This document shows, in pieces, positions 762-38,690 of a stretch of DNA of 43,704 nt; the stretch's first letter is position 1; every line of letters starts with the position of its first letter. The notes under the pieces are model-generated. The model was given only the letters and a program-made list of their open reading frames with translations, made no database searches and was not told the DNA's origin. Source of the stretch: an uncultured Eubacteriales bacterium (GTDB lineage Bacteria; Bacillota; Clostridia; Christensenellales; Aristaeellaceae); the NCBI GenBank assembly GCA_902790525.1, contig CADASI010000066.1, forward strand, positions 1 to 43,704, in the 5' to 3' direction. The translations under genes and the position numbers were made by a program.

Positions 762-796
762 AGTAATTTCCAATTTTCAATTTCCCATTCCTCATT
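762..796. repeat. Degenerate heptamer array (AATT type)
   Basis: Five consecutive 7-bp units read AGTAATT, TCCAATT, TTCAATT, TCCCATT and CCTCATT; each ends in ATT and they diverge in the first three or four bases. The array lies between the BMP-protein terminator and the ATPase gene. It looks like an eroded relative of the sharper AATTRGG arrays at 3313, 10077, 10663, 36375 and 38414. Confidence 0.6.
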
Positions 797-806
797 ATCA
801 AACTGA

Positions 807-833
807 AGGCCCGGATCGCGTGGGTCCGGGCCT
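807..833 (-). terminator. Hairpin downstream of the BMP binding-protein gene
   Basis: AGGCCCGGA (807-815) pairs perfectly with TCCGGGCCT (825-833) around a 9-nt loop. On the minus strand it starts 18 nt past the gene end and is followed by only a weak T-rich stretch. It could partly terminate, giving more binding protein than ATPase mRNA, as is usual for importers. Confidence 0.55.
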
Positions 834-850
834 CGAAAGTCAGTGGGATA

Positions 851-2035
851 TCAGAAGGCGGTATCCAGCAGGGTGATGCCGTCGATCTGGAGGTCGAAGT
901 ACGGGGCGGAGCGGAACTCGGACTCGTGGAAGTAGCCGTCCGCGACGACCTCGGTGTCGCCGGTGTAGGCCTCGTCGGTGTCGACGTCAGCCATGTAGCT
1001 CTCCAGCGCCGCGCCGTCCTTGGTGAAGGTGGCGGTGTCGAACACGTGCAGCTCGCCGGCCTTCATGGCGGCCTCGGCGGCCTCGATGGCCTCGGCGGTG
1101 CCGGGGGCGGCGGCCTTCTCGTTCAGGGTCAGCAGCTCGACGGAGCCGGTCTCCAGGGTGCCGGTCCAGTCGGCGGGGATGGCCTCGCCGTTCTGAACGG
1201 CGTTGATGATGAACTCGAAGTAGGGCTCCCAGTTGATGCGGGACGCCACGATATAGGTGTTGGGGCAGGCGTCGGCGGCGGAGCCGTTGTAGAACACGAA
1301 GGGGATGTTGGCGGCCTCGCAGGCGGTGGGCGCGCCCATGGAGTCGGCGTGCTCGGAGATCACGACGCAGTTGTCGGCGATCAGCTTGGCGGCGCCTTCC
1401 TTCTCCAGCGCCTCATCGTACCAGGAGCCGGTGAAGGTGACTTCCATCGTGGCGGCGGGGCACACGGAGCGGGCGCCCAGGAAGAAGGAGGTGTAGCCGG
1501 AGATGACCTCGGCGTAGGTGAACGCGCCGATGTAGCCCAGCTTGGCCTGATCCTCGGTGATGGCGCCGGACTCGATCAGCTCGTTGAGCTTGAGGCCCGC
1601 GGCGATGCCGCCCAGGTAGCGGCCCTCGTAGATGGAGGCGAAGGCATTGTGGTAGTTGCTCAGGCCCTCGGTGTGGGCGCGGGTGCCGGTGGCGTGGCAG
1701 AACTCGACCTCGGGGCACTCCTTGGCGGCCTGGATCATGTAGTCCTCATGGCCGAAGGAATCCGCGAACACGATGTTGCAGCCGGCGTCCACCAGGTCCA
1801 GGGCGGCCTCGTAGCACTCCTGGCCCTCGGGGATGTTGGTCTTCAGAATGGACTCGACGCCCAGCTTCTCGCAGGCTTCGGTGGCCGCGTTGATGAAGTT
1901 GAGGTCGTAGGTGGAGTTCTCGTTGTGCAGGAAGATGAAGCCGACTTTCGGGGTCTTGCCCTCGGCCATCGCGGTGGCAGAGAACAGGCAGACGATCATG
2001 GCGATCGCCATCAGGATGCTGACCAGTTTCTTCAT
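851..2035 (-). CDS. BMP family ABC transporter substrate-binding protein
   Basis: 394 aa from the ATG at 2035; AGGAGGT lies just upstream, so this start is preferred over an in-frame ATG 12 codons earlier. The N-terminus MKKLVSILMAIAMIVCLFSA is a signal sequence ending ATAMA-EG near residue 24. The mature part opens KTPKVGFIFLHNENSTYDLN, characteristic of the BMP/Med family (PF02608), the receptors of nucleoside and related importers. Cys16 is not in a clear lipobox (MIVC), so lipid anchoring is uncertain, unlike most Gram-positive binding proteins. The partner ATPase follows at 723. The ligand is unknown. Confidence 0.92.
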   Translation of the reverse strand: MKKLVSILMAIAMIVCLFSATAMAEGKTPKVGFIFLHNENSTYDLNFINAATEACEKLGVESILKTNIPEGQECYEAALDLVDAGCNIVFADSFGHEDYMIQAAKECPEVEFCHATGTRAHTEGLSNYHNAFASIYEGRYLGGIAAGLKLNELIESGAITEDQAKLGYIGAFTYAEVISGYTSFFLGARSVCPAATMEVTFTGSWYDEALEKEGAAKLIADNCVVISEHADSMGAPTACEAANIPFVFYNGSAADACPNTYIVASRINWEPYFEFIINAVQNGEAIPADWTGTLETGSVELLTLNEKAAAPGTAEAIEAAEAAMKAGELHVFDTATFTKDGAALESYMADVDTDEAYTGDTEVVADGYFHESEFRSAPYFDLQIDGITLLDTAF

Positions 2036-2104
2036 ACCAGATACCTCCTGTATTTGCCCGGCGGTTTGCACACTCCGGGAATAATATTATCATACATTTC
2101 CCGT

Positions 2105-2132
2105 ATAATATCGGAAAGCACTTTCGTGTAAA
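2105..2132 (-). promoter_or_regulatory. SigA-type promoter for the BMP importer operon
   Basis: Minus-strand -35 TTTACA (2132-2127), 16-nt spacer, -10 TATTAT (2110-2105), about 70 nt upstream of the ATG. Confidence 0.65.
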
Positions 2133-2207
2133 GATTGGTGTTTCCCACTGGAAATAAACGAAAAAACTGCGCCGCGGCGCATATCCCCCGTGGGCGTTTG
2201 ACAGCGG

Positions 2208-2216
2208 TGCTATAAT
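2208..2216 (+). promoter_or_regulatory. Extended -10 promoter upstream of the glycerophosphodiesterase
   Basis: TGC-TATAAT at 2208-2216 is an extended -10. A TTGACA at 2198-2203 is only 7 nt away, too close to act as its -35. The likely transcript start lies just before the GGGAACA array, so the 5' leader would be nearly 300 nt and consist of repeats. Confidence 0.5.
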
Positions 2217-2221
2217 TGGGA

Positions 2222-2249
2222 GGGAACAGGGAACAGGGAACAGGGAACA
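2222..2249 (+). repeat. GGGAACA heptamer array, four exact copies
   Basis: Four perfect GGGAACA units in tandem, followed by GGAATGG. The array starts about 6 nt after the -10 box at 2211-2216, so it probably forms the very 5' end of the downstream mRNA. Confidence 0.9.
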
Positions 2250-2252
2250 GGA

Positions 2253-2490
2253 ATGGCCGATGCCTTCCCCTTCAGGGGACCTCGAAAAACCTTACTTTGC
2301 CGCATACATTACTTCGGAAAACCCTGTAAAACAAGGTTTCTTTACGAGGCAATGCATGCGAAAACAGGGTTTTTCGAAGTTGCCTTCAGGGGGTTCGAGC
2401 GCCCGGAAAACAGTCCAGTGGACTGTTTTCAGCGAGAACGGGCCGGCAGGCCCCCAAGAGGTCGTCCCCCCGGTGAACCCTATACACTTA
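2253..2490. repeat. Mosaic of inverted repeats in the leader of the glycerophosphodiesterase gene
   Basis: This stretch has no convincing gene. It carries several hairpins: CCTTCCCCTTCAGGGG near 2260; GAAAACAGTCC-AGT-GGACTGTTTTC (arms 2406-2416 and 2420-2430); and a broader inverted repeat around GGAAAACCCTGT (near 2319) with ACAGGGTTTTTC (near 2375). An open frame (MADAFPFRGP...) crosses it but looks like translated repeat. It resembles composite REP-like intergenic cassettes of Clostridia. Confidence 0.6.
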
Positions 2491-2511
2491 AAACCAAAGC
2501 GGGTGTTCGAT

Positions 2512-3327
2512 ATGCGATTGACGGGCTGGCTGATCGTACTGATCGCGGCGGCGGCGCTGATCTACCTGACCGCGCCGAACCCGAGGCGCGGGCGCATGGC
2601 GCGCTGGCGGCACGAGGTGTTTGCCCACCGGGGGCTGCACGACGTGGACCGGGGCATTGTGGAGAACACGCTGCCGGCCTTCGCGGCGGCCTGCGAAAAC
2701 GGCTACGGCATGGAGCTCGACATACAGTTCTCGAAGGACTTCGAGGTGGTGGTGTTCCACGACGACACCTTAAAACGCTTGGCCGGCGATCCGCGCCGTG
2801 TGGACGCCTGCACCCTCGAGGAGCTGCGGGCCTTCCGCCTCCACGGGGTGGCGGACGCCCGCATCCCCACGCTCAAAGAGGTGCTTCAACTGGTGGACGG
2901 CCGCACGCCGCTTCTGATCGAATTGAAGAGCGGCAAAAACAACGCCCGGCTGTGCCGGGCGCTGATGACGCTGCTAAAGGACTATAAGGGCGAGTACATC
3001 GTGGAATCCTTCAACCCGCTGATCGTGGGCTGGTTCCGGTTAAACGCGCCCGGGGTGGTGCGCGGCCAGCTCGTGTGCCCCATGCGGGAGTACATCGCCC
3101 AGGCCAGCCGCGTCAGCGCGTTCTTCATGTCCGGGCAGCTGCTCAACTGCGTGGGACGCCCCGACTTCGTGGCCTATAACGCCAACGCCGCCCGCTTCTT
3201 CTCGCCCCACTTCCAGCGCTTCATCTTCCATACCCCCATGGCCGCGTGGACGGTGCGCACCGAACATCTGCAAGCGCTGATCGAGAAGCGGGGGGAGATC
3301 AGCATATTTGAGAAAATTAGGAATTAG
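2512..3327 (+). CDS. Glycerophosphodiester phosphodiesterase family protein, membrane-anchored
   Basis: 271 aa from ATG 2512. A single N-terminal membrane segment (about 4-20) precedes the GDPD domain: HRG motif at 39-41, ENT at 51-53, ELD at 68-70, HDDTL at 83-87 and IELKSGK further on. These are the metal-binding and catalytic residues of the family, which hydrolyses glycerophosphodiesters to glycerol-3-phosphate and an alcohol. The ribosome-binding site is weak; an in-frame GTG three codons earlier is an alternative. The last codons (KIRN-stop) are written in the AATTAGGAATTAG array that starts here, so the repeat appears to supply the stop codon. It is convergent with the YhaM gene. Confidence 0.88.
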   Translation: MRLTGWLIVLIAAAALIYLTAPNPRRGRMARWRHEVFAHRGLHDVDRGIVENTLPAFAAACENGYGMELDIQFSKDFEVVVFHDDTLKRLAGDPRRVDACTLEELRAFRLHGVADARIPTLKEVLQLVDGRTPLLIELKSGKNNARLCRALMTLLKDYKGEYIVESFNPLIVGWFRLNAPGVVRGQLVCPMREYIAQASRVSAFFMSGQLLNCVGRPDFVAYNANAARFFSPHFQRFIFHTPMAAWTVRTEHLQALIEKRGEISIFEKIRN

Positions 3328-3344
3328 AAATTAGGAATTAGGAG
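3313..3344 (+). repeat. AATTAGG heptamer array, left arm of an inverted pair
   Basis: Units AAATTAG, GAATTAG, AAATTAG, GAATTAG, GAG... start inside the last codons of the glycerophosphodiesterase gene and provide its TAG stop. The inverted partner is at 3431-3457. Confidence 0.8.
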
Positions 3345-3353
3345 TACAGGTGC

Positions 3354-3368
3354 AAATCCTTCGGATTT
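3354..3368. repeat. Subterminal hairpin AAATCC-TTC-GGATTT
   Basis: AAATCCTTCGGATTT followed by TTGATTAA. The same hairpin-plus-TTGATT(AA) module occurs next to heptamer arrays at 36453-36470 (reverse orientation), 38440-38455 and about 38634-38651 (reverse orientation). Confidence 0.75.
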
Positions 3369-3380
3369 GATTGATTAAAT

Positions 3381-3431
3381 GCTGCCGCGTTTTAGTGCAA
3401 TGATTGTATGCAAACGCGGCAGCAGCTTTTT
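3381..3431 (+). terminator. Strong hairpin terminator between convergent genes
   Basis: GCTGCCGCGTTT (3381-3392) pairs perfectly over 12 bp with AAACGCGGCAGC (3412-3423); AGCTTTTT follows on the plus strand. It sits inside the heptamer-bounded element and should stop transcripts from the glycerophosphodiesterase gene. On the other strand the T-tract is poor. Confidence 0.75.
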
Positions 3432-3457
3432 AATTCCTAACTCCTAATTCCTAATTC
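3431..3457 (-). repeat. AATTAGG heptamer array, right arm of the inverted pair
   Basis: On the minus strand the units are GAATTAG, GAATTAG, GAGTTAG and GAATTA. The array starts at the last two codons of the YhaM gene, whose stop TAG is part of the first unit. Both convergent genes therefore end in the same repeat in opposite orientations. Confidence 0.8.
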
Positions 3458-4407
3458 GCTTCCGCCCTCTCCTTCCTCCGATACAGCTTCCTCTCCAGCG
3501 ACCATATGCGCTCGGTGAAGCCTCCGGGCGGGGCGTTTTTGAGCTCGCGCTGCATCTCGAACATGCGGGCGTCCAGCAGGTCGAGCACGTGCAGCACCTC
3601 GGCTTCGGGGAACATGGGCGGCTTGGGGCTGCCGTACTCGGGCAGGTCGTGATGGGAGAGTATCATGTGCTCCAGCATCATCAGAAGCTCCGGCCGCACC
3701 TTGAGCTTCCGGCCGCAGCGGTCCAGCTCCGCCACGCCCTGCACCAGGTGGCCGATCAGCATGCCCTGGGCGGTGTAGTCGGACACCACGCCGATCTGGT
3801 CGGCCTCCATCTCGGTGATCTTGCACAGGTCGTGGAGGATCACCCCGGCGGCGAGCAGGTCGGCGTCGAGGTTGGGATAGATCTCGCAGATGGCCGCCGC
3901 GCCGCGCAGCATGGTGCTGGTGTGGTGCAGAAGCCCGGCGCGCTCCGCGTGGTGCAGCTTGGACGCCGCCGGGTAGTAGCTCAGCTTGTCGCCGCACTCC
4001 TCCAGCCGCATCAGCACCAGGTCCTTGAGCTCGTGGTCGGCGAAGGCGTCCACCCGGTTGAGGATCTCGTCCAGCATCTCGCTGGCGGGCCGGGGCGCGC
4101 AGGGGGCCAGCGCCGACATGTCCACGTCGTCGCTCTCCACCGAGGGCCGCATCTTGTCCACCCGCAGCTGGGGCCGGCCGTTGTACTCCAGCATCATACC
4201 CCGCAGGCGGATCACCTGCGCGGCGGCGGGCGGGGCGGTGAGGCCGTCCCACATCTTGGCGTTGACCTCGCCGGAGATGTCGCAGAGGGTCATGTCCAGG
4301 TACTTGCCGCCGTTGGAGCTGGTGCGCTGCTGGGCCTGACGCACCAGCAGAAAGCCGTCGAATACCTGCCCCTTGATCATGCTGCCGAGCTGTGGCTGTT
4401 CGCGCAT
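3451..4407 (-). CDS. yhaM: 3'-5' exoribonuclease YhaM family protein (OB fold plus HD domain)
   Basis: 318 aa from ATG 4407 (start MREQPQLGSMIKGQVFDGFL), close to the usual 314-327 aa of YhaM; a longer in-frame extension upstream runs through the promoter and is rejected. The N-terminal OB fold (about 12-90) binds nucleic acid. The HD domain carries HH at 161-162, HD at 192-193, H220 and HH at 252-253, which ligate the catalytic metals. The family degrades RNA, and in Bacillus also acts on DNA, from the 3' end. A GGGGGG-rich sequence serves as ribosome-binding site. Expression is from a divergent promoter shared with the next operon. Confidence 0.9.
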   Translation of the reverse strand: MREQPQLGSMIKGQVFDGFLLVRQAQQRTSSNGGKYLDMTLCDISGEVNAKMWDGLTAPPAAAQVIRLRGMMLEYNGRPQLRVDKMRPSVESDDVDMSALAPCAPRPASEMLDEILNRVDAFADHELKDLVLMRLEECGDKLSYYPAASKLHHAERAGLLHHTSTMLRGAAAICEIYPNLDADLLAAGVILHDLCKITEMEADQIGVVSDYTAQGMLIGHLVQGVAELDRCGRKLKVRPELLMMLEHMILSHHDLPEYGSPKPPMFPEAEVLHVLDLLDARMFEMQRELKNAPPGGFTERIWSLERKLYRRKERAEAN

Positions 4408-4447
4408 GAAACCGCCCCCCTGTTGTGTGATGATATCTTCTGATTCA

Positions 4448-4476
4448 ATAATAGTCTTTCCCCTCCGCCCTGTCAA
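4448..4476 (-). promoter_or_regulatory. SigA-type promoter for yhaM
   Basis: Minus strand: consensus TTGACA (4476-4471), 17-nt spacer, TATTAT (4453-4448). Its -35 lies 4 nt from the -35 of the divergent promoter at 4481. Confidence 0.8.
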
Positions 4477-4480
4477 GCCC

Positions 4481-4509
4481 TTGCGCATACGGAATATTTG
4501 GTCTATAAT
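4481..4509 (+). promoter_or_regulatory. SigA-type promoter for the two-gene membrane operon
   Basis: TTGCGC (4481-4486), 17-nt spacer, TATAAT (4504-4509), about 38 nt upstream of the ATG at 4547. Confidence 0.75.
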
Positions 4510-4546
4510 AGGGATACTGATCTGTAGGTTATCGGAGGTTCGGAAT

Positions 4547-5215
4547 ATGCCGGATACCGGGCTGACATGGTACAATCTGAAGGAGCATCTGCGCAAATTC
4601 TGCTGGGTGTACGCGGCGATCATCGCGGTGACGCTGGTGGTGGGCAACCTTCTGTGGCTCTCCACCGAGCCGCGGGTGCCGGAGAACGAGCGGATACTGA
4701 TCTACATGGCGGCCGAGTGGTCCAACCCGGAGCCGCTCAAGGACATCGCCGCGGACATGCTCAAAAAGCTGCAATCGGAGGACGACACCCTGCGGGAGGT
4801 GGCCTTTGAGAGCCTGACGTTCGCCGACCCCGAGCGGGAGTACACCGGCGTGATGCTGCTGATGACCCGGCTGGCGGTGGGCGAGGGCGACATCTTCCTG
4901 GCCAACGAAAAGGCCATGGAGGCGCTGGTGAGGGCCGGGGCCTGCCTGCCGCTGGACGAATACCGGGCGGCGGGCTGGCTCAACGACAGCGGGCTTGAAC
5001 CCTACTACGCCACCGTGACCGACGAGGAGACCGGCGAGAGCGCCACGCTGCTGGCGGGGTTCAAACTGGACAGCCTGACGGCGCTCAGGGAGATGGAGGC
5101 GTTCGACAATGCGGGCGCGTACCTGGTCATCGCCGCCAACGGCGAGAACATCGAGGCCTCCCTGCGGGCGGCGGAGTTCATGGCGGAGGATCTCAAAGAG
5201 GAGGCGGCACAATGA
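4547..5215 (+). CDS. Membrane-anchored protein of unknown function
   Basis: 222 aa from ATG 4547, with GGAGG eight nucleotides upstream. One membrane segment (about 19-38) follows a short cytoplasmic tail; residues 39-222 should be outside. The outer part is acidic and helical (KDIAADMLKKLQSEDDTLRE), with a region FLANEKAMEALVRAGACLPLD that loosely recalls periplasmic binding-protein folds; I do not recognise a family. It overlaps the next gene by 4 nt (ATGA), so the two are translationally coupled and probably act together at the membrane. Confidence 0.85.
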   Translation: MPDTGLTWYNLKEHLRKFCWVYAAIIAVTLVVGNLLWLSTEPRVPENERILIYMAAEWSNPEPLKDIAADMLKKLQSEDDTLREVAFESLTFADPEREYTGVMLLMTRLAVGEGDIFLANEKAMEALVRAGACLPLDEYRAAGWLNDSGLEPYYATVTDEETGESATLLAGFKLDSLTALREMEAFDNAGAYLVIAANGENIEASLRAAEFMAEDLKEEAAQ

Positions 5216-5694: not shown

Positions 5695-5703
5695 ATTTTC
5701 CGT

Positions 5704-7032: not shown

Positions 7033-7050
7033 CGCGTTGCCTCCAGATGG

Positions 7051-7083
7051 TGCAGAGTGCAGAGTGCAGAGTGCAGAGTGCAG
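7051..7083 (+). repeat. GCAGAGT heptamer array, 4.6 copies
   Basis: Four exact GCAGAGT units plus GCAG. It lies in the 5' leader of the minus-strand HMA/ttcA-like operon, between its promoter (7129-7157) and start codon, and abuts the hairpin at 7087-7106. Confidence 0.9.
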
Positions 7084-8120: not shown

Positions 8121-10078
8121 ACAACACCATCATCGGCGTGCTGGCCCACGTGGACGCGGGCAAGACCACCTTCTCGGAGCAGATATTGCGCCACGCGGGG
8201 GTGATCCGGTCGGCGGGCCGGGTGGACCACGGCGACGCCTTCCTGGACGCCCACCCGCTGGAAAGACAGCGGGGCATCACCATATTCTCGGACCAGGCCG
8301 TGTTCGAGCGGGACGGGCGGCGGTTCTTCTGGGTGGACACCCCCGGCCACGCCGACTTCGCCGCGGAGATGGAGCGCGCCGCCACGGTGCTGGACTACGC
8401 GGTGGTGGTCGTGTCCGGGGCCGAGGGCGTGCAGAGCCACACCGAGACCGTCTGGGCGATGCTCGAGAGGCTTGGGATACCGGCCTTCGTGTTCGTCAAC
8501 AAGACGGACCGGGCGGGCTTCGACGCCGGGACGCGCCTCGCAGACCTGAAGCGCCGCCTGTCCCCGGACGGCGTGGACATGCGGGGCTATGCCGGCGGGG
8601 AGATGCCGGATCAACTGATCGAGGCTGTGGCCGAGCGTGACGAGGCGCTGCTGGACCGCCTGCTCTCGGGCGACTATGACGCCGGGCTGTGGCTCGACGC
8701 CCTCAAAGGGCAGATCACAGGCAGGGAGATTTTCCCGGTCTATTGGGGCTCCGCGCTCAACGACGCGGGCGTCGGGACCTTTCTGGACGCGCTGTGCCTG
8801 CTGACCGGCGACACCGCCCCCGACGCGGGGAACGTCCCCTTCGACGCGCTGGTGTACAAGGTGCGGCGGGACGCCCAGGGCAACCGGCTGACGTTCTTTA
8901 AGGTGCTCGCCGGGTCCGTCGCGGCGCGGGAGGAGGTGGCGCTGCCCTCGGGCGCGACGGCCAAGGTCAACGAGCTTCGGCTGTACTCCGGGGCGAAATA
9001 CCGGCCCGCCGCCCGGGCGGAGAAGGGCATGCTGTGCGCCGCCGCGGGGCTTCCCGAGGCCCGGCCGGGGGATCATATCGGGCAAAGCGCCGGGCAGCGC
9101 AACCGCTTCGAGGCCGAGCCGATGCTGGCCGCCTCGGTGATATGGGGGCCGGAGGTCCCCGCCGGGAGGGTGCTCCAGGCGCTTAAACTGTTGGAGGAGG
9201 AGGACCCGGCGCTGAACGTCAGCGTGAACGCCGCCGGGGACGCCGTCGATGTGAACGTCATGGGCCCGATCCAGCTGGAGGTGTTGAAACAGCTCATGCA
9301 GGACCGCTTCGGCATCCCGGTGGAATTCGGCAGGCTCCGGGTGATGTACATGGAGACCATCGCCGCGCCCGCCATAGGCATCGGGCACTACGAGCCCCTG
9401 CGCCACTACGCCGAGGTGCAGCTTCGGCTGTCGCCGGGGCCCCGGGGCAGCGGCATCACCTTTGAATCAAAGTGCCACGTGGACGAGCTCAGCCTCAACT
9501 GGCAGCGGCTGATCGAGACCCATGTGTTTGAAAAGAAGCACAAGGGCGTGCTCACCGGCGCGCGGCTGACGGACGTGAAGGTGGAGCTTCTGCACGGGCG
9601 CAGTCACTTGAAGCACACCGAGGGCGGCGACTTCCGCCAGAGCACCTACCGCGCCATCCGCAACGCGCTTATGTACGCCGAATCCGTGCTGCTGGAGCCC
9701 GTGTGCCGGTTTGAGCTGCGCCTCCCCGGGGAGGATTACGGCCGGGTGATGGGGGATCTGACCCGCATGCAGGCCGAACTGGAGCCCCCCGCGCCCGAGG
9801 GCGAGGGCTTCACCCTGCGGGGCGAGGCGGCGTTCAGGCTGTTCTCCGATTACATCTCCGACTTCATGGCCGCCACCCACGGGCGCGGGAGCCTGCGCTA
9901 CCGGCTGGACCACTACGCCCCCTGCCGGGACGCGGAGGCCGTCATCGCCGAGGCCGATTACAACCCCCTGGCCGACGATACCCCCGACAGCGTGTTCTGT
10001 TCCCACGGCGCGGGGTTTACCGTGCCGTGGGATCAGGTGCGGCAGTACGCACATACGCCGGTGGAGAAGTTGGGTTGA
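8117..10078 (+). CDS. TetM/OtrA-like ribosome-associated GTPase (translation factor)
   Basis: 653 aa from ATG 8117, which overlaps the dipeptidase stop (ATGA); the longer open frame upstream is a shadow of that gene. G motifs: AHVDAGKTT (10-18), RGIT (52-55), DTPGH (74-78), NKTD (128-131). The rest follows the EF-G/TetM domain order. In domain IV, where TetM has its proline-bearing loop YSPVSTPADFR, this protein has GRSHLKHTEGGDFR, which lacks the prolines that contact the drug site. It therefore looks like a housekeeping paralogue of Clostridia and not an acquired resistance gene. The AATTAGG array begins directly after its TGA. Confidence 0.9.
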   Translation: MNNTIIGVLAHVDAGKTTFSEQILRHAGVIRSAGRVDHGDAFLDAHPLERQRGITIFSDQAVFERDGRRFFWVDTPGHADFAAEMERAATVLDYAVVVVSGAEGVQSHTETVWAMLERLGIPAFVFVNKTDRAGFDAGTRLADLKRRLSPDGVDMRGYAGGEMPDQLIEAVAERDEALLDRLLSGDYDAGLWLDALKGQITGREIFPVYWGSALNDAGVGTFLDALCLLTGDTAPDAGNVPFDALVYKVRRDAQGNRLTFFKVLAGSVAAREEVALPSGATAKVNELRLYSGAKYRPAARAEKGMLCAAAGLPEARPGDHIGQSAGQRNRFEAEPMLAASVIWGPEVPAGRVLQALKLLEEEDPALNVSVNAAGDAVDVNVMGPIQLEVLKQLMQDRFGIPVEFGRLRVMYMETIAAPAIGIGHYEPLRHYAEVQLRLSPGPRGSGITFESKCHVDELSLNWQRLIETHVFEKKHKGVLTGARLTDVKVELLHGRSHLKHTEGGDFRQSTYRAIRNALMYAESVLLEPVCRFELRLPGEDYGRVMGDLTRMQAELEPPAPEGEGFTLRGEAAFRLFSDYISDFMAATHGRGSLRYRLDHYAPCRDAEAVIAEADYNPLADDTPDSVFCSHGAGFTVPWDQVRQYAHTPVEKLG

Positions 10079-10108
10079 GTTAGGAATTAGGAATTAGGAG
10101 ATAGGAAT
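10077..10108 (+). repeat. AATTAGG heptamer array after the GTPase stop codon
   Basis: Units GAGTTAG, GAATTAG, GAATTAG, GAGATAG, GAATTA begin in the TGA stop and run into the MITE at 10109. After the MITE the sequence resumes GGAGTTGATTGG, consistent with one array split by an insertion. Confidence 0.8.
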
Positions 10109-10251
10109 TAGAGTGTGTTTCTAAAATGCCTGAAGCGCATTTTCGGCGTCTTTGACTGCATTTCTGCGTTGCTTTCCCTTGAGGAAATCGCCTTGAAATG
10201 CAGTCAAATCCACTCGAAACTGCATCTCCCGGCATTTAGAAACACACTCTA
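10109..10251. mobile_element. 139-bp MITE with 19-20-bp terminal inverted repeats and TA flanks
   Basis: The left end GAGTGTGTTTCTAAAATGCC (10111-10130) pairs with the reverse complement of GGCATTTAGAAACACACTC (10231-10249), differing by one A. Both ends are flanked by TA (10109-10110 and 10250-10251), the duplication made by IS630/Tc1-mariner transposases. An inner inverted repeat TTGACTGCATTT (10152-10163) / AAATGCAGTCAA (10196-10207) is also present. There is no coding capacity, so it would need a transposase in trans. Confidence 0.82.
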
Positions 10252-10252
10252 G

Positions 10253-10657
10253 GAGTTGATTGGTGCTTCGCGGATAGTTGAGGGCACTCTTCTCCGTTGC
10301 TTGCGGAACCTTTCCGCCCCCTGACGCTTCGCTAGGCCCTACGGACCGGGGGCACCTCCTACTCCCTCCGGCCATGACGGAGAACCTCTCCGCCCCCTTC
10401 GGGGGCACCTCCCCTGAGAGGGGAGGCAAGGGGGTTACGGCATACGCGCGACAGCCCTGGCTCCCCTTTCACGCACCGGCGTCCGCGCGAGCGGGCCGCC
10501 GGCAGCGCCGCGCTGGAATCCGAAGGATTCGCGCGGGCTGGTCGCGCCTGCCGGAGGCAGTGGCGCGACTGCTGTCCAGGGGAGCTGGCCCGCAGGGCCT
10601 GAGAGGTCGTTATCCCCCAGGAAAACGCAAAGAACCCATCGTTCCGTCGGCACTCCA
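10253..10657. repeat. Composite intergenic repeat cassette, no gene seen
   Basis: GC-rich mosaic of hairpins: GCCCCC-TTC-GGGGGC (10392-10406), CTCCCCT-GAG-AGGGGAG (10409-10425), and a GGGAGCTGGCC...GGGCCTGAGAGG module near 10578-10610. These resemble REP-like cassettes found between genes of gut Clostridia. Frames open through it on both strands but encode Arg/Pro/Gly-rich translated repeat. A heptamer array closes the region at 10663. Confidence 0.6.
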
Positions 10658-10662
10658 TAATT

Positions 10663-10690
10663 CCTAATTCCCAATTCCTAATTCCTAATT
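10663..10690 (-). repeat. AATTAGG heptamer array, right arm of the 10077-10690 element
   Basis: Plus-strand units CCTAATT, CCCAATT, CCTAATT, CCTAATT; on the minus strand (AATTAGG)n starts one base after the stop TAA of the four-helix gene at 10692. It is inverted relative to the array at 10077. Confidence 0.85.
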
Positions 10691-11373: not shown

Positions 11374-12351
11374 ACATTCGCATTGAGAGGACCGCCGCGC
11401 CCAAGGCGAAGCCGGCGCCGGGTCAGAAGCTGGGCTTCGGCCACATCTTCACCGATCACATGTTTGTGATGGACTACACCGAGGGCCAGGGCTGGCACGA
11501 CGCCCGCGTGGTGCCCTACCAGAATATTTCGCTGGCGCCGTCGGCGATGGTCTTCCACTACGGCCAGGAGATGTTCGAGGGCCTCAAGGCCTATCGCGGC
11601 GAAAACGGCGAGGCCTTCCTGTTCCGCCCGGACATGAACGCCAAGCGCGCCAACGCCTCCAACGACCGCCTGTGCATCCCGCAGATCCCCGAGGAGGACT
11701 TCGTGCAGGCCATCAAGACCGTGGTGGCCGTGGACAAGGACTGGATCCCCACCGACCCGGGCACGTCCCTGTACATCCGCCCCTTCGTGATCGCCACCGA
11801 CGAGTTCCTGGGCGTGGCCCCCTCGAAGACCTACCTGTTCATCATCATACTGAGCCCCTCCGGCGCGTACTATGAGAGCGGCCTGGCCCCCGTGGGCATC
11901 TGGATCGAGGACGAGTACGTCCGCGCCGTGCGCGGCGGCATCGGCTTTGCCAAGACCGGCGGCAACTACGCCGCGTCTCGGCGCCATGAACATCATGTTC
12001 AAGATAAACGGCAAGATCGTCACCCCGATGCTCAACGGCTCCATCCTCCCCGGCATCACCCGCAACAGCGTTCTGTTCCTGTGCCGCCAGTGGGGCATGG
12101 AGGTCGAGGAGCGCAAGGTGTCCGTGGACGAGCTGATCGAGGCCCAGAAGAACGGCACCCTCGAGGAGGTCTTCGGCACCGGCACTGCCGCCGTCATCTC
12201 CCCCGTGGGCAAGCTGCGCTACATGGACGAGGTCATGACCATCGGCGACGGCAACATCGGCCCCGTGACCCAGAAGCTGTACGACACCATCACCGGCATA
12301 CAGACCGGCAAGGTGGAGGACAAGTACGGCTGGCGCGTGCGCGCGGATTGA
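11367..12351 (+). pseudogene. ilvE: Branched-chain amino acid aminotransferase, disrupted by an out-of-frame deletion
   Basis: The frame from ATG 11367 matches type II BCAT (KLGFGHIFTDHMFVMDYTEG) up to [10 protein letters not shown], with the PLP lysine at residue 196. At about 11976-11980 the frame breaks, and homology resumes one frame over with [20 protein letters not shown] through to WRVRAD. Against the usual type II pattern roughly 28 residues (the QVLWLDG...EEV stretch) are missing, so the lost DNA is of the form 3n+2, about 86 nt. Without that segment the product would be non-functional. It is either a real pseudogene or a consensus error. A strong terminator follows. Confidence 0.88.
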
Positions 12352-15778: not shown

Positions 15779-15819
15779 AATGCACCGATATCAGGGGTCA
15801 ATATGTACTCTGTACTCTC

Positions 15820-28570: not shown

Positions 28571-28588
28571 TTAATCACATCCTATTCA

Positions 28589-28606
28589 GGGAGTAGGGAG
28601 TAGGGG
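28589..28606 (+). repeat. GGGAGTA heptamer array, 2.5 copies, between secA and prfB
   Basis: GGGAGTA-GGGAGTA-GGGG in the 57-nt gap between the two genes. Short, but it has the same 7-bp period and one-strand purine bias as the longer arrays. Confidence 0.55.
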
Positions 28607-28627: not shown

Positions 28628-31304
<2,677 letters not shown>

Positions 31305-33128: not shown

Positions 33129-34238
33129 ATGGACTACACCGCAATGGATCAATACTGGATCTGGTTGAGCGGCGTGGAGGACATCGGTCCGAAGCGCTTC
33201 TACCAGCTTTTGACGCTCTATGAGGACCCCCGGGCGGTCTGGGACGCGCTGGGGGAATCCGGCGCGCCCAGGGAGATGCAGTTTCTGGGGCGCGCGGCGC
33301 TCAAATCCCTGCGGGAGGCCCGCAGCGAGGCGTACTTCTACCGGCTGTTCGACCGGCTGGAGCGCAGCGGCATACGCGCCGTCACCCGGCTGTCGGAGGA
33401 CTACCCCGGCGCGCTGACGACCATCTACGATCCGCCGCCGACGCTCTACGTCCGGGGCGAGTGCCCGCTCAACGGCGAAAAGATGTTCGCCGTGGTGGGC
33501 TCCCGGCGCAGCACCCGGGACGGCCAGCGGGCCGCGCGGGAGATCGCCGAGGGGCTGGCCCGGGCGGACGTCACGGTGGTCAGCGGCATGGCCCGGGGCA
33601 TCGACAGCTATGCCCACGAGGGCGCGATGGCCGGTCGGGGCCGCACCGTGGCGGTGCTGGGCTGCGGCGTGGACGTGTGCTATCCCCCGGAGAACGACGA
33701 GCTCATGGGGCGCATACTGGATTCCGGCGGCGCGGTGGTGTCGGAGTACGTGCCCGGCACGCCGCCGCTGGCGGGGCACTTTCCCCAGCGCAACCGCATC
33801 ATCAGCGGGCTTTCCAAGGGCACGCTGCTGGTGGAGGGCGCGAAGAAGTCCGGCGCGATGATCACCGTCAACTGCGCGCTGGATCAGGGGCGGGACGTGT
33901 TCGCCGTGCCCGGGAGCATCTATTCGCCCCTGTCCGCCACCCCCAACCGCATGATCGTGGACGGTGCGATCCCCGTCATCTCCCCGTGGGAGATCCTCGA
34001 ATACTACCGCTGGGCCAGCCGCCCGGAGACCTCCGACGCCAATCCCCACCAGAAGGTGGCGCTGGACCCGGAGGCGTTAAAAATCGTGGAACCCCTGCGC
34101 GAGCAGGAGCTTTCGTTTGAAGAATTAACCCAAATCACGGGTTTTTCCGCGGCAAAGCTAAATTCCCACTTGACAATGTTGGAACTTCGGGGAATAATAA
34201 TGAAGGTGCCCGGCGGCATGTACCGGGCCTACCTATAA
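33129..34238 (+). CDS. dprA: DNA-processing protein DprA
   Basis: 369 aa from ATG 33129 (TTGGAG six nucleotides upstream). An N-terminal SAM-like domain (IWLSGVEDIGPKRFYQLLTL) precedes the Rossmann domain with AVVGSRRSTRDGQRAA, VVSGMARGIDSYAHEGA, PPENDELM, SEYVPGTPP, FPQRNRIISGLS and a C-terminal winged-helix (LSFEELTQITGFSAAKLNSH). DprA loads RecA on incoming single-stranded DNA in transformation. It is first in the conserved dprA-topA-trmFO-hslVU order. Confidence 0.97.
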   Translation: MDYTAMDQYWIWLSGVEDIGPKRFYQLLTLYEDPRAVWDALGESGAPREMQFLGRAALKSLREARSEAYFYRLFDRLERSGIRAVTRLSEDYPGALTTIYDPPPTLYVRGECPLNGEKMFAVVGSRRSTRDGQRAAREIAEGLARADVTVVSGMARGIDSYAHEGAMAGRGRTVAVLGCGVDVCYPPENDELMGRILDSGGAVVSEYVPGTPPLAGHFPQRNRIISGLSKGTLLVEGAKKSGAMITVNCALDQGRDVFAVPGSIYSPLSATPNRMIVDGAIPVISPWEILEYYRWASRPETSDANPHQKVALDPEALKIVEPLREQELSFEELTQITGFSAAKLNSHLTMLELRGIIMKVPGGMYRAYL

Positions 34239-34253
34239 TTTTCGGAGGATATT

Positions 34254-36374
34254 ATGGCAAACAAGCTCGTCATCGTCGAATCTCCGGCCAAGGCCAGGAC
34301 GATCGGCAAGTTCCTGGGCCGGGGCTACAAGGTCGAGGCGTCCCAGGGACATGTGCGCGACCTCCCCAAGAGCCAGATCGGCGTGGATGTCGATAACAAC
34401 TTTGAACCCAAGTACATCACCATTCGCGGGCGGGGCGAGATACTGGGCAAGATCCGCAAGGAAGCCCGCGCCGCCGGGAAGATCTACCTCGCGACCGACC
34501 CGGACCGCGAGGGCGAGGCCATCTCCTGGCACCTGGCCAATGTGCTGGGCATCGCGGAGGACGCCCCCTGCCGCATCGAGTTTCACGAGGTGACCGCCAA
34601 GGCCGTCAAGGCCGCGGTGAAGAACCCCCGGAAGATCAACATGGACCTGGTCAACGCCCAGCAGGCCCGGCGCGTGCTGGACCGGCTGGTGGGCTACAAG
34701 ATCAGCCCCATCCTCTGGCAGAAGGTCAAGAAGGGGTTGAGCGCCGGGCGCGTGCAGTCCGTCGCCACCAAGATCATCTGCGACCGCGAGGCCGAGATCG
34801 AGGCCTTCATCCCCGAGGAATACTGGACGCTGGACGGCACGTTCTCCGTCAACAACGCCCCGGTGAAGGCCCGCTTCATGGGCATCGGGGACGAGAAGGT
34901 GGAACTCAAGACCCGCGCCGAGGCCGACGACGTCATCGCCCGTTTGAAGGACGCCCGCTACACCGTGGGCGAGATCAAACAGAGCGAGCGCCGCCGCATG
35001 CCCGCCGCGCCGTTCACCACCTCGAACCTCCAGCAGGAGGCCAGCCGCAAGCTGGGCTTCTCCACCCAGAAGACCATGCAGATCGCCCAGCAGCTCTACG
35101 AGGGCGTGGAGCTTGCGGGCGAGGGCAGCCAGGGCCTGGTGACCTACATCCGCACGGACTCCACCCGCATCGCCGACGAGGCCGTGGACGCCGTGCGCGC
35201 GCTGATCCTCGAAAGCTACGGGCCGGATTACCTGCCCGAGAAGCCCAACACCTTCAAGACTCGCAAGTCCGCGCAGGACGCCCACGAGGCCATCCGCCCC
35301 ACCGTGGTGGACCGCAAGCCCGAGAACATCAAGGCGTCGCTGTCGCGGGACCAGTTCCGGCTGTACAAGCTGATCTACGAGCGCTTCATGTCCAGCCAGA
35401 TGACCCCGGCCCTCTACGACACCCTGACCGCGGACATCGACGCCTCCACCGGCCCCCGGTTCCACTTCTCCGGGCAGAAGCTGCGCTTCCCCGGCTTTAC
35501 CCGGGTCTACGTGGAGAGCCAGGACGATGCGCAGGACGAGGTCGACAACGCCAGCCTGCCGGACATCACCCAGGGCATGACCGCGGCCTGCGGCGACCTG
35601 GACGCCGAGCAGCACTTCACCCAGCCGCCGCCAAGGTACACCGAGGCGTCGCTGGTGCGCACGCTGGAGGAGCTGGGCATCGGACGCCCGTCCACCTACT
35701 CCCCGACCATCTCCACCATCACCGGGCGCAGGGGCTACATCGCCAAGGAGAACAAGCGCCTGGTGCCCACGGAGCTGGGCCGGATCGTCAACGACCTGAT
35801 GTGCAAGAACTTCCCCGACATCGTGGACACCACCTTCACCGCCGGCATGGAGGACGCGCTGGACGAGGTCGAGGCCGGCAAGATGGAGTGGAAGACCATC
35901 GTGTCCGACTTCTACACCCCCTTCGAGAAGGACCTGGAGAAGGCCGAGGCGTCCATCGAAAAGGTGGCCATCGAGGACCAGGTGTCCGACGTGCCCTGCG
36001 AAAAGTGCGGCGCGATGATGGTCTACAAGATGAGCCGCTACGGCCGCTTCCTGGCCTGCCCCAACTTCCCCGCCTGCCGCAATACCCTGGCCCTGCCCAA
36101 CAACATCGGCGTCAAGTGCCCCAAATGCGGCGGCGAGCTGCTGGAGCGCATCAGCAAGAAGGGCCGCAAGTTCTACGGCTGCGAGAAGTACCCCGAGTGC
36201 GACTTCGTGTCCTGGGACCGCCCCGTGAACGACCGCTGCCCCGTCTGCGGCAGCTATATGGTCTTGAAGCGCGGCCCCAAGGACACCGTCTACCACGTCT
36301 GCGCCAGCGAAACCTGCCGGCATAAGGTGCAGGTGGAGAATACCGCGGCGGAGGATGGGGAGAACGGGGATTAA
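34254..36374 (+). CDS. topA: DNA topoisomerase I
   Basis: 706 aa. Toprim domain (KLVIVESPAKARTIGKFLGR, ATDPDREGEAISWHL), catalytic Tyr298 in YIRTDSTRI, and three C-terminal zinc-ribbon units: CEKCG...CPNFPAC, CPKCGG...CEKYPEC and CPVCG...CASETC. It relaxes negative supercoils. GGAGG precedes the ATG, 16 nt after dprA. The TAA stop is immediately followed by a heptamer array. Confidence 0.98.
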   Translation: MANKLVIVESPAKARTIGKFLGRGYKVEASQGHVRDLPKSQIGVDVDNNFEPKYITIRGRGEILGKIRKEARAAGKIYLATDPDREGEAISWHLANVLGIAEDAPCRIEFHEVTAKAVKAAVKNPRKINMDLVNAQQARRVLDRLVGYKISPILWQKVKKGLSAGRVQSVATKIICDREAEIEAFIPEEYWTLDGTFSVNNAPVKARFMGIGDEKVELKTRAEADDVIARLKDARYTVGEIKQSERRRMPAAPFTTSNLQQEASRKLGFSTQKTMQIAQQLYEGVELAGEGSQGLVTYIRTDSTRIADEAVDAVRALILESYGPDYLPEKPNTFKTRKSAQDAHEAIRPTVVDRKPENIKASLSRDQFRLYKLIYERFMSSQMTPALYDTLTADIDASTGPRFHFSGQKLRFPGFTRVYVESQDDAQDEVDNASLPDITQGMTAACGDLDAEQHFTQPPPRYTEASLVRTLEELGIGRPSTYSPTISTITGRRGYIAKENKRLVPTELGRIVNDLMCKNFPDIVDTTFTAGMEDALDEVEAGKMEWKTIVSDFYTPFEKDLEKAEASIEKVAIEDQVSDVPCEKCGAMMVYKMSRYGRFLACPNFPACRNTLALPNNIGVKCPKCGGELLERISKKGRKFYGCEKYPECDFVSWDRPVNDRCPVCGSYMVLKRGPKDTVYHVCASETCRHKVQVENTAAEDGENGD

Positions 36375-36406
36375 TTAGGAATTAGGAATGGGGAATTAGG
36401 AATTAT
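36375..36406 (+). repeat. AATTAGG heptamer array directly after the topA stop
   Basis: Units TTAGGAA, TTAGGAA, TGGGGAA, TTAGGAA, TTA begin one base after TAA. Inverted partner at 36477-36509. Confidence 0.85.
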
Positions 36407-36452
36407 AGAATGCCCGGTCGGATGGTATGTTGAATCGCAATCCTTAATCAAA

Positions 36453-36470
36453 GAAATCCGCAAGGATTTC
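36453..36470. repeat. Subterminal hairpin GAAATCC-GCAA-GGATTTC
   Basis: Preceded by TTAATCAAA, i.e. the TTTGATTAA of the other copies in reverse. It lies 6 nt inside the right heptamer array. Confidence 0.75.
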
Positions 36471-36476
36471 TACCTG

Positions 36477-36509
36477 AATTCCTAATTCCTAATTCCCAAC
36501 TCCTAATTT
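36477..36509 (-). repeat. AATTAGG heptamer array, right arm, before trmFO
   Basis: Plus-strand units GAATTCC, TAATTCC, TAATTCC, CAACTCC, TAATTTT. It closes the 135-bp element placed between topA and trmFO. Confidence 0.8.
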
Positions 36510-36546
36510 TATCTGATTCAACCTCTCTCTTTTGGAGAAAACACAA

Positions 36547-37869
36547 ATGCAGAATACCTTCCCCACAGTCACCGTCGTCGGCGCGGGTTTGGCGGGGTGC
36601 GAGGCGGCCTGGCAGCTGGCCAGGCGCGGCGTGCCGGTGCGGCTGATCGACATGAAGCCGCAAAAGTACAGCCCCGCGCACAAGTCCCCCGGCTTCGCGG
36701 AGCTGGTGTGCTCCAATTCATTGAAGGCGGAGCACCTGACCAACGCCTCCGGCCTTTTGAAGGTGGAGCTTCGGGCCATGGACAGCCTGATCCTCTCAGC
36801 GGGGGAGGCCACCCGGGTGCCCGCGGGGGGCGCGCTGGCGGTGGACCGCCACCTGTTCTCGGACAGGATCACTACGGCGGTCCAAAGCCACCCCCTCATA
36901 GAATGCGCGTCGGAACTCGTGGAGGAGATCCCCGAGGGCCCCGCCATCATCGCCACCGGGCCGCTGACCGACCCGGCGCTTTGCGATGCCATCGCGCGCT
37001 ACACCGGCGTGAAGGCGCTGAACTTCTTCGACGCCGCTGCCCCCATCGTCACCGCCGAATCGCTGGACATGACCAAGGTCTTCCGCGCCTCCCGCTACGG
37101 CCGGGGGTCGGACGACTACCTCAACTGCCCGATGACCGAGGACGAGTACAACGCCTTCTACGACGCGCTGGTCGGCGCGGAGCTGGCGGAGCTGCACGAC
37201 TTTGAAAAGAAGCTGGTGTTCGAGGGCTGCCTGGCCGTGGAGATACTGGCCTCCCGGGGCCGCCAGACGCTGGCTTTCGGGCCGCTGAAGCCGGTGGGGC
37301 TCGTCGATCCCCGCACGGGGAAGGAACCCTACGCCGTGGTGCAGCTCCGGCAGGAGAACGCCCAGGCCACGCTGTACAACCTGGTGGGCTTCCAGACGCG
37401 CCTCAAGTGGGGCGAGCAGAAGCGGGTGTTCTCGATGATCCCGGGGCTTGAGCACGCCGAGTTCGCCCGCTACGGCGTGATGCACCGCAACACCTACTTG
37501 AACGGCCCCGCGGTGCTGGGCCCAAACTACGCCGTGAAGGGCAATGCGATGCTGCGCTTCGCGGGGCAGCTTTCCGGCGTGGAGGGCTACATGGAGTCCA
37601 CCGCCAGCGGGCTGGTGGCTGCCGTGGGGCTGTACTGCGCGCTGCGCGGCAGGCCCGAGCCCGACTTCACCGGGCGGACGATACTGGGGGCACTGGCGCG
37701 GCACGTGTGCACGCCGAGCCCGAATTTCCAGCCGATGAACGCCAATTTCGGCATACTGGACCCCCTGCCCTTCAAGGTCAGGGGCAAGCGCAACCGATAC
37801 GAGAAGCTGTCGGAGGCCGCCATAGAGACATTGAACGAGGTGATCCAGCAATATGAGTTACGCGGATGA
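36547..37869 (+). CDS. trmFO: tRNA (m5U54) methyltransferase TrmFO, folate/FAD-dependent
   Basis: 440 aa from ATG 36547; an in-frame TTG at 36532 is less likely because GGAG sits between. FAD motif [15 protein letters not shown] is near the N-terminus. [49 protein letters not shown] and [19 protein letters not shown] are family signatures, with the Cys residues used in catalysis. It methylates U54 of tRNA using methylene-THF. Its end overlaps hslV by 17 nt. Confidence 0.97.
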
Positions 37870-38410
37870 ACCCAGAAGCCCCTTCCGGGGCACCACGATC
37901 TGTGCGGTGAAGCGCGACGGCGTGATCGCCGTGGCGGGGGACGGGCAGGTCACCATGGGCGAGCACACCATCATGAAGGGCACCGCGAAAAAGGTGCGGC
38001 GCATCTTCTCCGGCAAGGTCGTCGTCGGCTTCGCCGGGTCGGTGGCGGACGCCTTCGCGCTGTCGGAGAAGTTCGAGGACAAGCTGACCCAGTACTCCGG
38101 CAACCTGCCCCGCGCTGCCGTGGAGCTGGCGCAGGACTGGCGGATGGACAAGGCCATGCGCCGCCTGGAGGCCATGCTGCTTTGCGCCGATCAGGAAAAC
38201 CTGATGCTGGTCAGCGGCACCGGCGAGGTCATCGAGCCCGACGACGGCATACTCGCCATCGGCTCCGGCGGCAACTACGCCCTCGCCGCCGCCCGCGCCC
38301 TCTGTAACAACACCGACCTCCCCGCCCCCGAGATCGCAAGAAAGGCGCTGGAGATCGCGTCTGAAATTTGCGTGTATACGAATGGGAATATCATTGTGGA
38401 GACAGTGTGA
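37853..38410 (+). CDS. hslV: HslV/ClpQ peptidase subunit
   Basis: 185 aa. The proteasome-like core starts at [20 protein letters not shown]; Thr14-Thr15 align with the catalytic Thr of HslV, so about 13 N-terminal residues ([13 protein letters not shown]) would be removed or retained as in Bacillus ClpQ, which starts with Ser. It forms a double hexamer capped by HslU. The usual xerC gene between trmFO and hslV is absent; instead hslV overlaps trmFO. A 276-bp repeat element separates it from hslU. Heptamers start a few bases after the stop. Confidence 0.96.
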
Positions 38411-38413
38411 GAT

Positions 38414-38690
38414 GAATTGAGAATTGAGAATGGCGGAACAAATCCTTGCGGATTTGTCTTGATTGGACCGCCGTTCCAATGCAGTGCCATACCGAATAGA
38501 CCACCAATCGTAACTATTCAGTCCGACGGGCGATCAGGGGATTGCCCCTACGGATACACGCGATTGTAGGGGCGATGCCCTCATCGCCCGCATGAAACGC
38601 ATGCCCGGACTGAACAGTTACCATTAATCAAAAGAAATCCGTCAGGATTTCCTCATAAATTCTCAATTCTCAATTTTCAATTCTCAATTA
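38414..38690. repeat. Nested inverted-repeat element between hslV and hslU, bounded by AATTGAG heptamers
   Basis: Left array GAATTGA-GAATTGA-GAAT (38414-38431) and inverted right array (TTCTCAA)n at 38659-38690. Inside are hairpin AAATCCTTGCGGATTT (38440-38455) with TTGATT, and its inverted copy near 38634-38651. Further in, GTAACTATTCAGTCCG (38510-38525) pairs with CGGACTGAACAGTTAC (38606-38621), one mismatch. In the centre, ATTGCCCCTAC (38541-38551) and GTAGGGGCGAT (38565-38575) form a REP-like hairpin. No gene is seen. Confidence 0.85.

Follow-up and report, generated by a model that had tools for sequence, protein, structure and literature searches.

Tandem arrays with an exact 7-bp period lie in the gaps between genes of a 43,704-nucleotide stretch of DNA (contig CADASI010000066.1; hereafter the window) from an uncultured Eubacteriales bacterium of the family Aristaeellaceae. 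The analyses described here indicate that these heptamer arrays form the inverted ends of small elements that are apparently mobile. They are very probably the ends of elements that carry a gene for S23p (PF05635) and of derivatives of those elements. With good confidence, we further assign the elements to the intervening sequence (IVS) type found in 23S rRNA genes, the S23p-bearing copies being the complete form and the copies in the window derivatives.

Results

Period-7 arrays in the genus

The genome of the window (G000, hereafter the own genome; G numbers denote genomes, L numbers sequenced stretches or loci and H numbers plasmid records) was scanned over 435,365 bp with Tandem Repeats Finder (TRF), which returned 100 rows of period 7, as against four of period 6 and one of period 8. 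These stretches were drawn mostly from contigs already shown to hold AATTAGG, and the array count for the 435 kb is not blind; in the congener G001, a blind sample of 400,000 bp (the first 20 kb of contigs C1-C20) gave 107, seven and one rows for periods 7, 6 and 8, respectively. The exceptional status of period 7, on which the original prediction had staked its case, is thus confirmed in both genomes. Two close relatives used for comparison, G060 (the genome of L078, and the same genome as G005) and G061 (the genome of L099; it has contig numbers and lengths in common with G003), are both ~92% identical to the own genome; the G060 stretches were drawn in part from contigs with repeat matches.

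Three consecutive AATTAGG units, with at most two mismatches, have 336 matches in the own genome (overlaps within one array counted apart), and the reversed control has none. With at most one mismatch, matches are present in 21 of the 28 genomes in the genus (own included), in none of eight from other genera of the family and in one of 24 elsewhere in the order. No period-7 array was found in 238 kb from four genomes of other genera of the family, and a single one was found in 719 kb of other Bacillota. Other heptamers can occur in congeners that lack the AATTAGG triplet: period-7 arrays number five in 19.5 kb of G011, six in 80 kb of G020 and one in 80 kb of G026, with none in 80 kb of G004 or 9 kb of G017.

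In the samples of the own genome and G001 the modal array length is 32 nt. The original description of the arrays as unrelated in sequence holds only in part: most heptamers are purine-rich variants, and the heptamer of an orthologous array can change from one species to another. Their supposed confinement to gaps between genes is approximate: a crude caller of open reading frames (ORFs), prone to excess calls where GC content is high, places 23 of 97 own-genome arrays and 28 of 105 G001 arrays wholly within ORFs.

Inverted pairs of arrays

Most arrays belong to in-facing pairs, a feature of the AATT arrays in the window that had previously been overlooked. The own-genome sample contains 41 such pairs (82 of 97 arrays), spanning 71-611 bp, and G001 contains 39 (78 of 105 arrays); out-facing and same-facing neighbouring arrays number three and three in the own genome and five and three in G001. 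The two ends of a pair agree in coarse heptamer class in 38 of the 41 pairs of the own genome and 34 of the 39 pairs of G001 (shuffled means 17 and 13); their fine types agree in 30 and 23 of these pairs, respectively (shuffled means 11.5 and 5.5). Dispersed copies at unrelated sites can be alike over their full length, with homology stopping near the array edges. Target-site duplications of at least 4 bp were found in none of 79 pairs, for which the longest shared junction word averages 3.34, compared with 3.27 in mismatched pairs; a 2-bp excess at one offset of those tried (14 vs 6.7 expected in the 79 pairs) makes a 2-bp duplication possible.

The pairs also share internal motifs. An inner hairpin (HP, AAATCC..GGATTT) often stands just inside the array, with a GCCGC-rich sequence as the alternative inner motif. 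Every site that matches the HP pattern adjoins an array (eight A and ten B sites in the own genome, four and four in G001), and the hairpin accompanies AATTAGG, AATTGAG, AATGGAG and GCAGAGT arrays. Palindromic insertion sites were considered as a general rule and discarded, strongly symmetric flanks being present in only one of 77 pairs (L059:17772). In G001, the P2 palindrome hosts or abuts some arrays (six of eight arm matches), and some array elements lie nested within or beside a palindromic repeat with arm GATAAACAGGGATTTG (L059 17740-17985, L066 2816 and L067 15735).

S23p genes between arrays

In its complete form, the element of the genus measures 434-654 bp and consists of an array, an S23p gene and the same array inverted, with arrays of median length 31 nt (~4.4 heptamers). 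A profile search returned 42 PF05635 matches in 20 of the 28 genomes of the genus, the polymorphic ORF of G060 (L254) among them; 41 of these were examined, in sets of 30 and 11, with G007:C103:7569, a fragment beside L238, excluded. Outside the genus, 38 loci of the phylum were taken from a much longer list (29 taken one per genome and nine strong ones chosen), along with nine of 29 plasmid records (H1, H2, H3, H4, H5, H7, H8, H9 and H11; eight cyanobacterial and one from Gemmatimonadota). A gene was scored as bracketed if it had an array on each side, no more than 240 bp away, and if the two arrays had the same period and at least 70% reverse complementarity between their units.

By this test, S23p genes are bracketed at 33 of the 41 loci of the genus (26 of 30 and seven of 11), in every case by period-7 arrays, and shifted segments along the first 30 of these loci pass in none of 110 cases. 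In the phylum, 19 of 29 loci (18 with period 7, one with period 11) and five of the nine chosen ones (four with period 7, one with period 13 that is probably spurious) are bracketed, giving 22 period-7 brackets among 38, with two of 114 shifted controls passing. On the plasmids, the figures are eight of nine (seven with period 7, one with period 8) and one of 36, and random segments pass in 0 of 464 cases from other Bacillota and four of 525 from the own sample. Heptamer arrays stand at all eight cyanobacterial plasmid loci, seven of which pass the strict test.

The S23p genes of L274 and L284 lie within 23S rRNA genes (RF02541), together with heptamer arrays, and are thus IVSs; L284 has only one clear array and does not pass as a pair. 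By eye, L313 likewise seems to have 23S-like flanks. On two cyanobacterial plasmids (L285 and L292), the S23p gene is located between cas6 and cas4 of a CRISPR (clustered regularly interspaced short palindromic repeats) locus with heptamer arrays around it, type I-D according to the Cas1d label of L285.

S23p-less elements and the window

The own genome contains three S23p genes, in AATTAGG (L252), GGGATTA (L231) and GGAGAGT (L294) elements, all on contigs other than the window or the samples, and the contigs of the sampled pairs have no S23p match (80 pairs, two genomes). What the short elements share with an autonomous partner is its ends: they carry the same heptamers and some of the inner motifs of the S23p element, not of a DDE transposon. 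The HP hairpin lies between the gene and the 3' array in complete elements L251 and L255 (two of 26), the GCCGC motif lies inside the arrays of complete elements L253 and L300, and every heptamer represented by at least five arrays in the own sample is matched by an S23p element of its type somewhere in the genus. The window copies are relics and S23p-less elements that appear to be internally deleted derivatives, deletion being the natural reading.

The arrays that had been listed for the window are all present, within a few bases of where they had been placed (TRF). They comprise four inverted pairs of AATTAGG and AATTGAG type (3315/3431, 10080/10658, 36373/36477 and 38414/38658) and several single arrays, as follows.

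3315..3457, no strand: non-autonomous element 1; left AATTAGG array of 4.1 units at 3315-3343, HP hairpin at 3352-3369, core hairpin at ~3380-3424, right inverted array at 3431-3457.
10078..10690, no strand: non-autonomous element 2; arrays at ~10078-10111 and ~10658-10690 (inverted), with other repeats inside, including an IS (insertion sequence)-like palindrome at ~10110-10250.
36373..36508, no strand: non-autonomous element 3, in the topA-trmFO gap; arrays at 36373-36405 and 36477-36508, HP hairpin at 36453-36470.
38414..38689, no strand: non-autonomous element 4, between hslV and hslU; AATTGAG arrays at 38414-38431 and 38658-38689, HP hairpins at 38438-38456 and 38634-38651, nested palindromes.
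765..789, minus strand: single worn array, a relic (TRF); the orthologous gap in G060 and G061 is 15-16 bp.
2221..2251, plus strand: single GGGAACA array of 4.4 units, in a larger insertion (~2217-2490) where G060 has only 23 bp.
7050..7083, plus strand: single GCAGAGT array of 4.9 units, its opposite end apparently replaced by another palindrome.
15804..15818, minus strand: possible GCAGAGT-type remnant, TGTACTC of 2.1 units (TRF); G061 may retain a trace of it (GCAGAATTCACTCT) in the orthologous gap.
28588..28605, plus strand: single GGGAGTA array of 2.6 units, a relic (TRF).

Long hairpins are predicted for the transcripts of elements 1 and 3, with z scores of -9.6 and -5.1, respectively, and none of 200 shuffles as stable in either case, and Rfam gave no match on the window at gathering score. 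The gap of element 1 is also filled in G060 and G061, by a similar core hairpin with other heptamers. At the site of element 2, G061 has an 89-bp gap with AATGAGG as the left array and AATTCCC/CATTCCC as the right; at the GCAGAGT site, G060 has ~2-3 units followed by a similar palindrome, and G061 has a GGAGAGT pair.

Other repeats occur alongside the heptamer elements. The IS-like palindromic repeat within element 2 (window 10110-10250, ends AGAGTGTGTTTCTAAA) has many copies of ~95-97% identity in G060, several of them near contig ends, and adjoins TTAG of heptamer arrays both here and at L045:14495. Palindromic intergenic families (GGGCGATGAGGGCATCGCCC, GTAGGGACGCCAT..ATGGCGTCC and CTTCCCCTGAAGGGGAAGG) recur at window 38490-38620, at L198 11642-11736 and in L053 and L056, nested in heptamer elements and in some cases polymorphic. 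Elsewhere in the window, 86 bp of G060 and G061 are missing at 11977-11978 and 62 bp of L078 and L099 at 30149-30150, each between like flanks and apparently within coding sequence, representing either frameshift deletions or assembly errors.

Presence, absence and turnover among relatives

The gaps that hold elements 3 and 4 are short in many relatives: the topA-trmFO gap has only a few bases in 11 of the 18 relatives read at the trmFO locus, and the hslV-hslU gap is short and without an element in seven of 18 (L079, L080, L081, L083, L087, L093 and L096). The filled gaps contain different elements. The window has AATTAGG at topA-trmFO and AATTGAG at hslV-hslU, the close relative L078 has the reverse, and L099, like L078, has an AATTAGG element at hslV-hslU. 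In L086 and L091, the gap downstream of hslV contains a small ORF, which we take to resemble a DUF559-type endonuclease-like protein.

Fourteen pairs of the own genome have an orthologous gap in G060, of which 12 are filled by a heptamer element, one is empty and one holds another repeat; for the nine with an orthologous gap in G061, eight are filled and one holds another repeat. In the reverse comparison, for which up to 420 bases of gap sequence were viewed, 15 G060 pairs have an orthologous gap in the own sample (nine filled, four empty, two with other sequence), 22 more have no orthologous gap, and of seven with an orthologous gap in G061 six are filled and one has other sequence. A 173-bp GCAGAGT element with HP is present in G060 at window 16913 and absent from the own genome and G061, the alignment of the latter running through the site. 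Where G060 has the element L214, the own genome has a gap of 27 bp, and it has 9 bp in place of the S23p element of G060 at L221 5713-6148, the ORF of which is that of L254.

Filled orthologous sites often differ in heptamer or interior. At L047:17819, the own genome has AATTAGG and G060 has AATTGAG with reversed hairpins, and at L056 13830 the own genome has four GGGATTA units plus GGGAGTA where G060 has GGGAGTA only, a direct change of heptamer. Orthologous arrays differ by exact 7-bp units at L047:19146, L052:2716 and L047:13455. Array occupancy and copy number vary among relatives, and the elements are insertions that turn over, without target duplication. Neither of the outcomes that would have refuted the original prediction (period 7 no commoner than 6 or 8, or arrays at identical sites with fixed copy number in all relatives) was obtained.

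Constraint and protein-heptamer concordance

The S23p gene is under purifying selection, with a median ratio of nonsynonymous to synonymous substitution (dN/dS) of 0.09 over 12 pairs (those with dS < 2 among the 60 most alike). The protein and the heptamer that surrounds it also agree closely. With hand-set heptamer labels for 25 elements, all 27 pairs at protein identities of at least 69% share their heptamer, as compared with one of 273 below this value. With a scripted consensus heptamer for the 32 elements that have a readable frame and two arrays, 24 of 26 pairs at or above 69% identity share it and the other two are one base apart; the fraction is 12 of 57 at 60-69% identity and one of 413 below 60%.

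In 28 same-heptamer pairs, mean identity is 98% for the 3' arrays and 42% for the adjoining inner 40 nt; the corresponding means on the 5' side are 81% and 53%, several of the 5' array values being underestimates, as arrays of unequal length were compared without phase shift. The odd unit GGCAGTA recurs at a set position in GGGAGTA elements, third from the outside in five of seven 5' arrays and second in six of seven 3' arrays. From these patterns, the arrays look to be held by selection, and not for pairing alone, because the odd units do not lie opposite each other in the hairpin.

Discussion

Proposed mechanism

We consider that S23p probably binds the arrays. As a pentamer, it would likely grip the array with one heptamer per subunit, an arrangement that would explain both the fixed period and the number of units, four to five. 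The solved S23p relatives 2gsc (XCC0516; by name a Xanthomonas campestris protein) and 2rld each have five chains as deposited. S23p would take part in mobilizing cognate elements in trans, a role to which we give slightly better than an even chance; that S23p drives the movement has chances of about even. Cutting and joining would be carried out by another enzyme. Judging from the predicted stems, transcripts of the elements should, like those of IVSs, form hairpins of the RNase III type, and insertion between genes may perhaps be tolerated for this reason.

A broader possibility, offered tentatively and at somewhat less than even chance, is that of a new class of transposition system. A pentameric four-helix bundle without a catalytic domain would recognize DNA or RNA through a heptamer code in which each subunit takes one heptamer, and together with a host nuclease would move anything between inverted cognate arrays. 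All of the following would then be its footprints: rRNA IVSs, the short tandemly repeated repetitive (STRR) sequences of cyanobacteria, and the repeats of Xanthomonas (GGGAATC), Geobacter and Beggiatoa. The pairs of protein and heptamer would constitute a readable, re-programmable code.

Alternative explanations

The original prediction had offered slippage, templated end addition or a mobile element with heptamer ends as the source of the arrays. The inverted pairs, the dispersed copies, the empty and filled gaps and the S23p form all speak for the mobile element, and templated end addition is not needed. Slippage is real, as the exact 7-bp unit differences between orthologous arrays attest, but secondary: that the arrays are nothing other than simple-sequence slippage of purine-rich repeats in gaps is scarcely credible, since slippage gives no reason for a period of 7 over 6 or 8, for inverted matching pairs, for the same inner hairpin or for the bracketing of one gene family. 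It is also very unlikely that the elements are immobile RNA hairpins kept for a regulatory role in the host, as attenuators, terminators or RNase III sites, with heptamers that do no more than form the stem. Strong predicted folds, positions between operon genes and the frequent filling of the same sites in relatives (12 of 14 in G060) would fit such a role, but close relatives have empty sites, other element families occupy the same gap and complete copies contain an S23p gene.

Mobility by other means requires closer consideration. Short dispersed inverted-repeat elements whose homology ends near the array edges would be expected of miniature inverted-repeat transposable elements (MITEs) moved by a DDE or HUH transposase of the classical kind, with heptamer arrays as ends and S23p as cargo. 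We judge this improbable: no target-site duplication of 4 bp or more accompanies the 79 pairs, which show only the 2-bp excess at one offset; Y1 transposase (PF01797) has no match in the own genome; no transposase-bearing long element was met in the two samples, DDE families not having been searched; and the gene that is repeatedly located between such ends is S23p. The sole long candidate for an autonomous element between single arrays, L074 8181-11149, was set aside, its ORFs showing no transposase by eye (no family search). RNA-mediated retro-mobility, in which a reverse transcriptase, helped by S23p in the manner of Avd, copies an excised hairpin RNA of IVS-like form, is likewise unlikely. 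It would account for the lack of target duplication, it draws on the likeness of PF05635 to Avd, the helper of diversity-generating retroelements, noted in PMC10053308, and the own genome has three matches to the reverse transcriptase family RVT_1. RVT_1 was found, however, in only eight of the 28 genomes of the genus, and was not found in G001, which has the most AATTAGG matches, or in G005, which has recent insertions, both ~95% complete; the search found none in G003 either.

Several observations weigh against the reading preferred here. A matching pair was undetected at eight of 41 PF05635 genes in the genus and 14 of 38 in the phylum. The misses in the genus are L230 and L303 (contig edge, with an array on the visible side), L249 and L295 (broken gene), L238 (arrays farther out), L245, L298 and L302. 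Arrays of period 8 or 11 stand on one or both sides of the S23p genes of L258, L260, L263, L283 and L293, so that period 7 is strongly preferred but not absolute, and at L292, where the nearest arrays are direct, it is a more distant one that passes the test. Across the phylum, S23p-bearing genomes had been predicted to be rich in period-7 arrays; 200 kb from ten of them yielded two, compared with none in 166 kb from ten without S23p, which is too few to support a genome-wide link outside the genus. The own draft (94.7% complete) has no cognate S23p for its GGGAACA, GCAGAGT, AATTGAG and GGGAGTA arrays, and G018 and G027 have many AATTAGG matches and no S23p match. The correlation between heptamer and protein is partly one of descent, because gene and array travel together. 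To our knowledge, S23p has no nuclease or polymerase domain and would therefore not act alone. Lastly, no transposition was observed, the comparison being one of presence and absence between species at ~92% identity, where empty may mean lost.

Relation to known systems

Paired inverted palindromic units that are intergenic and lack target duplications are familiar from the repetitive extragenic palindromic (REP) sequences and bacterial interspersed mosaic elements (BIMEs) found with REP-associated tyrosine transposases (RAYTs, TnpA_REP). The elements described here resemble them in all three respects and differ in having heptamer arrays as ends and no Y1 transposase in the own genome; an identity with RAYT/IS200 was rejected on the PF01797 result for G000. 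The Foldback elements of eukaryotes, with long inverted ends made of short tandem repeats, are an analogy only, as hosts and genes differ.

IVSs have long been known within some bacterial rRNA genes, S23p being the protein of 23S rRNA IVSs, and tandem heptamers are well known as the STRR sequences of cyanobacteria. Like the 23S rRNA IVS, complete copies in the genus carry S23p between two inverted repeats that pair into a long stem; unlike it, the elements lie between protein genes, comprise many mostly S23p-less copies and have ends built from heptamer arrays of many sequences. As the window elements stand between protein genes and not in rRNA, 'IVS-type element' is the appropriate term, not rRNA IVS.

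Parts of this picture have been described separately. The Coxiella IVS has tandem GACAGAT heptamers of variable copy number before S23p, and the Xanthomonas protein is cited in the same paper as forming a homopentamer whose subunits are four-helix bundles (PMC4990558). The 23S_rRNA_IVP domain occurs in rRNA insertions of bacteria of the candidate phyla radiation (CPR; PMC11270868), and a resemblance of PF05635 to Avd is reported (PMC10053308). Xanthomonas GGGAATC and Nostoc GGGGA(C/T)T heptamers are intergenic with four units preferred, and 70 and 75 convergent inverted pairs are given for two Xanthomonas genomes (PMC4692102); the likeness to the present arrays thus covers heptamers, about four units, intergenic position and, in Xanthomonas, convergent inverted pairs. 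For Nostoc PCC 7120, the same source has few inverted pairs and no such repeats on plasmids, and its authors discuss G-quadruplexes and generally find no mobile elements at the repeats (PMC4692102). The TAACTGA repeats of Beggiatoaceae, where S23p goes unmentioned in the portion concerned, occur as direct sets with one inverted case (PMC4679880); like STRRs, they are tandem heptamers in gaps, and they differ from the present arrays in being direct. Heptamers have also been described in Geobacter (PMC2700814).

Beyond the remark on Coxiella heptamers, no published link of S23p to heptamer arrays was found in the openly licensed literature (preprints excluded, and mostly from listings). The suggestion that the arrays represent an undescribed system therefore needs qualification. 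IVSs and S23p in rRNA are known, as are heptamers in other phyla; as far as we could find, the link between them, and the IVS-type element as a genome-wide family with a heptamer code, have not appeared in print.

Implications

For readers of such genomes, the hundreds of intergenic 'microsatellites' become the ends of mobile elements. One cause might underlie many of the heptamer repeats reported from various groups of bacteria, for which no explanation is generally accepted. The concordance between protein and heptamer, if it is true that it reflects recognition, is a natural specificity code, and comparing the S23p proteins of period-8 and period-11 loci with those of period-7 loci might show what sets the period. 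The mobility of IVSs, the role of S23p and the heptamer repeats are thereby joined, and all are testable with one small protein and synthetic arrays.

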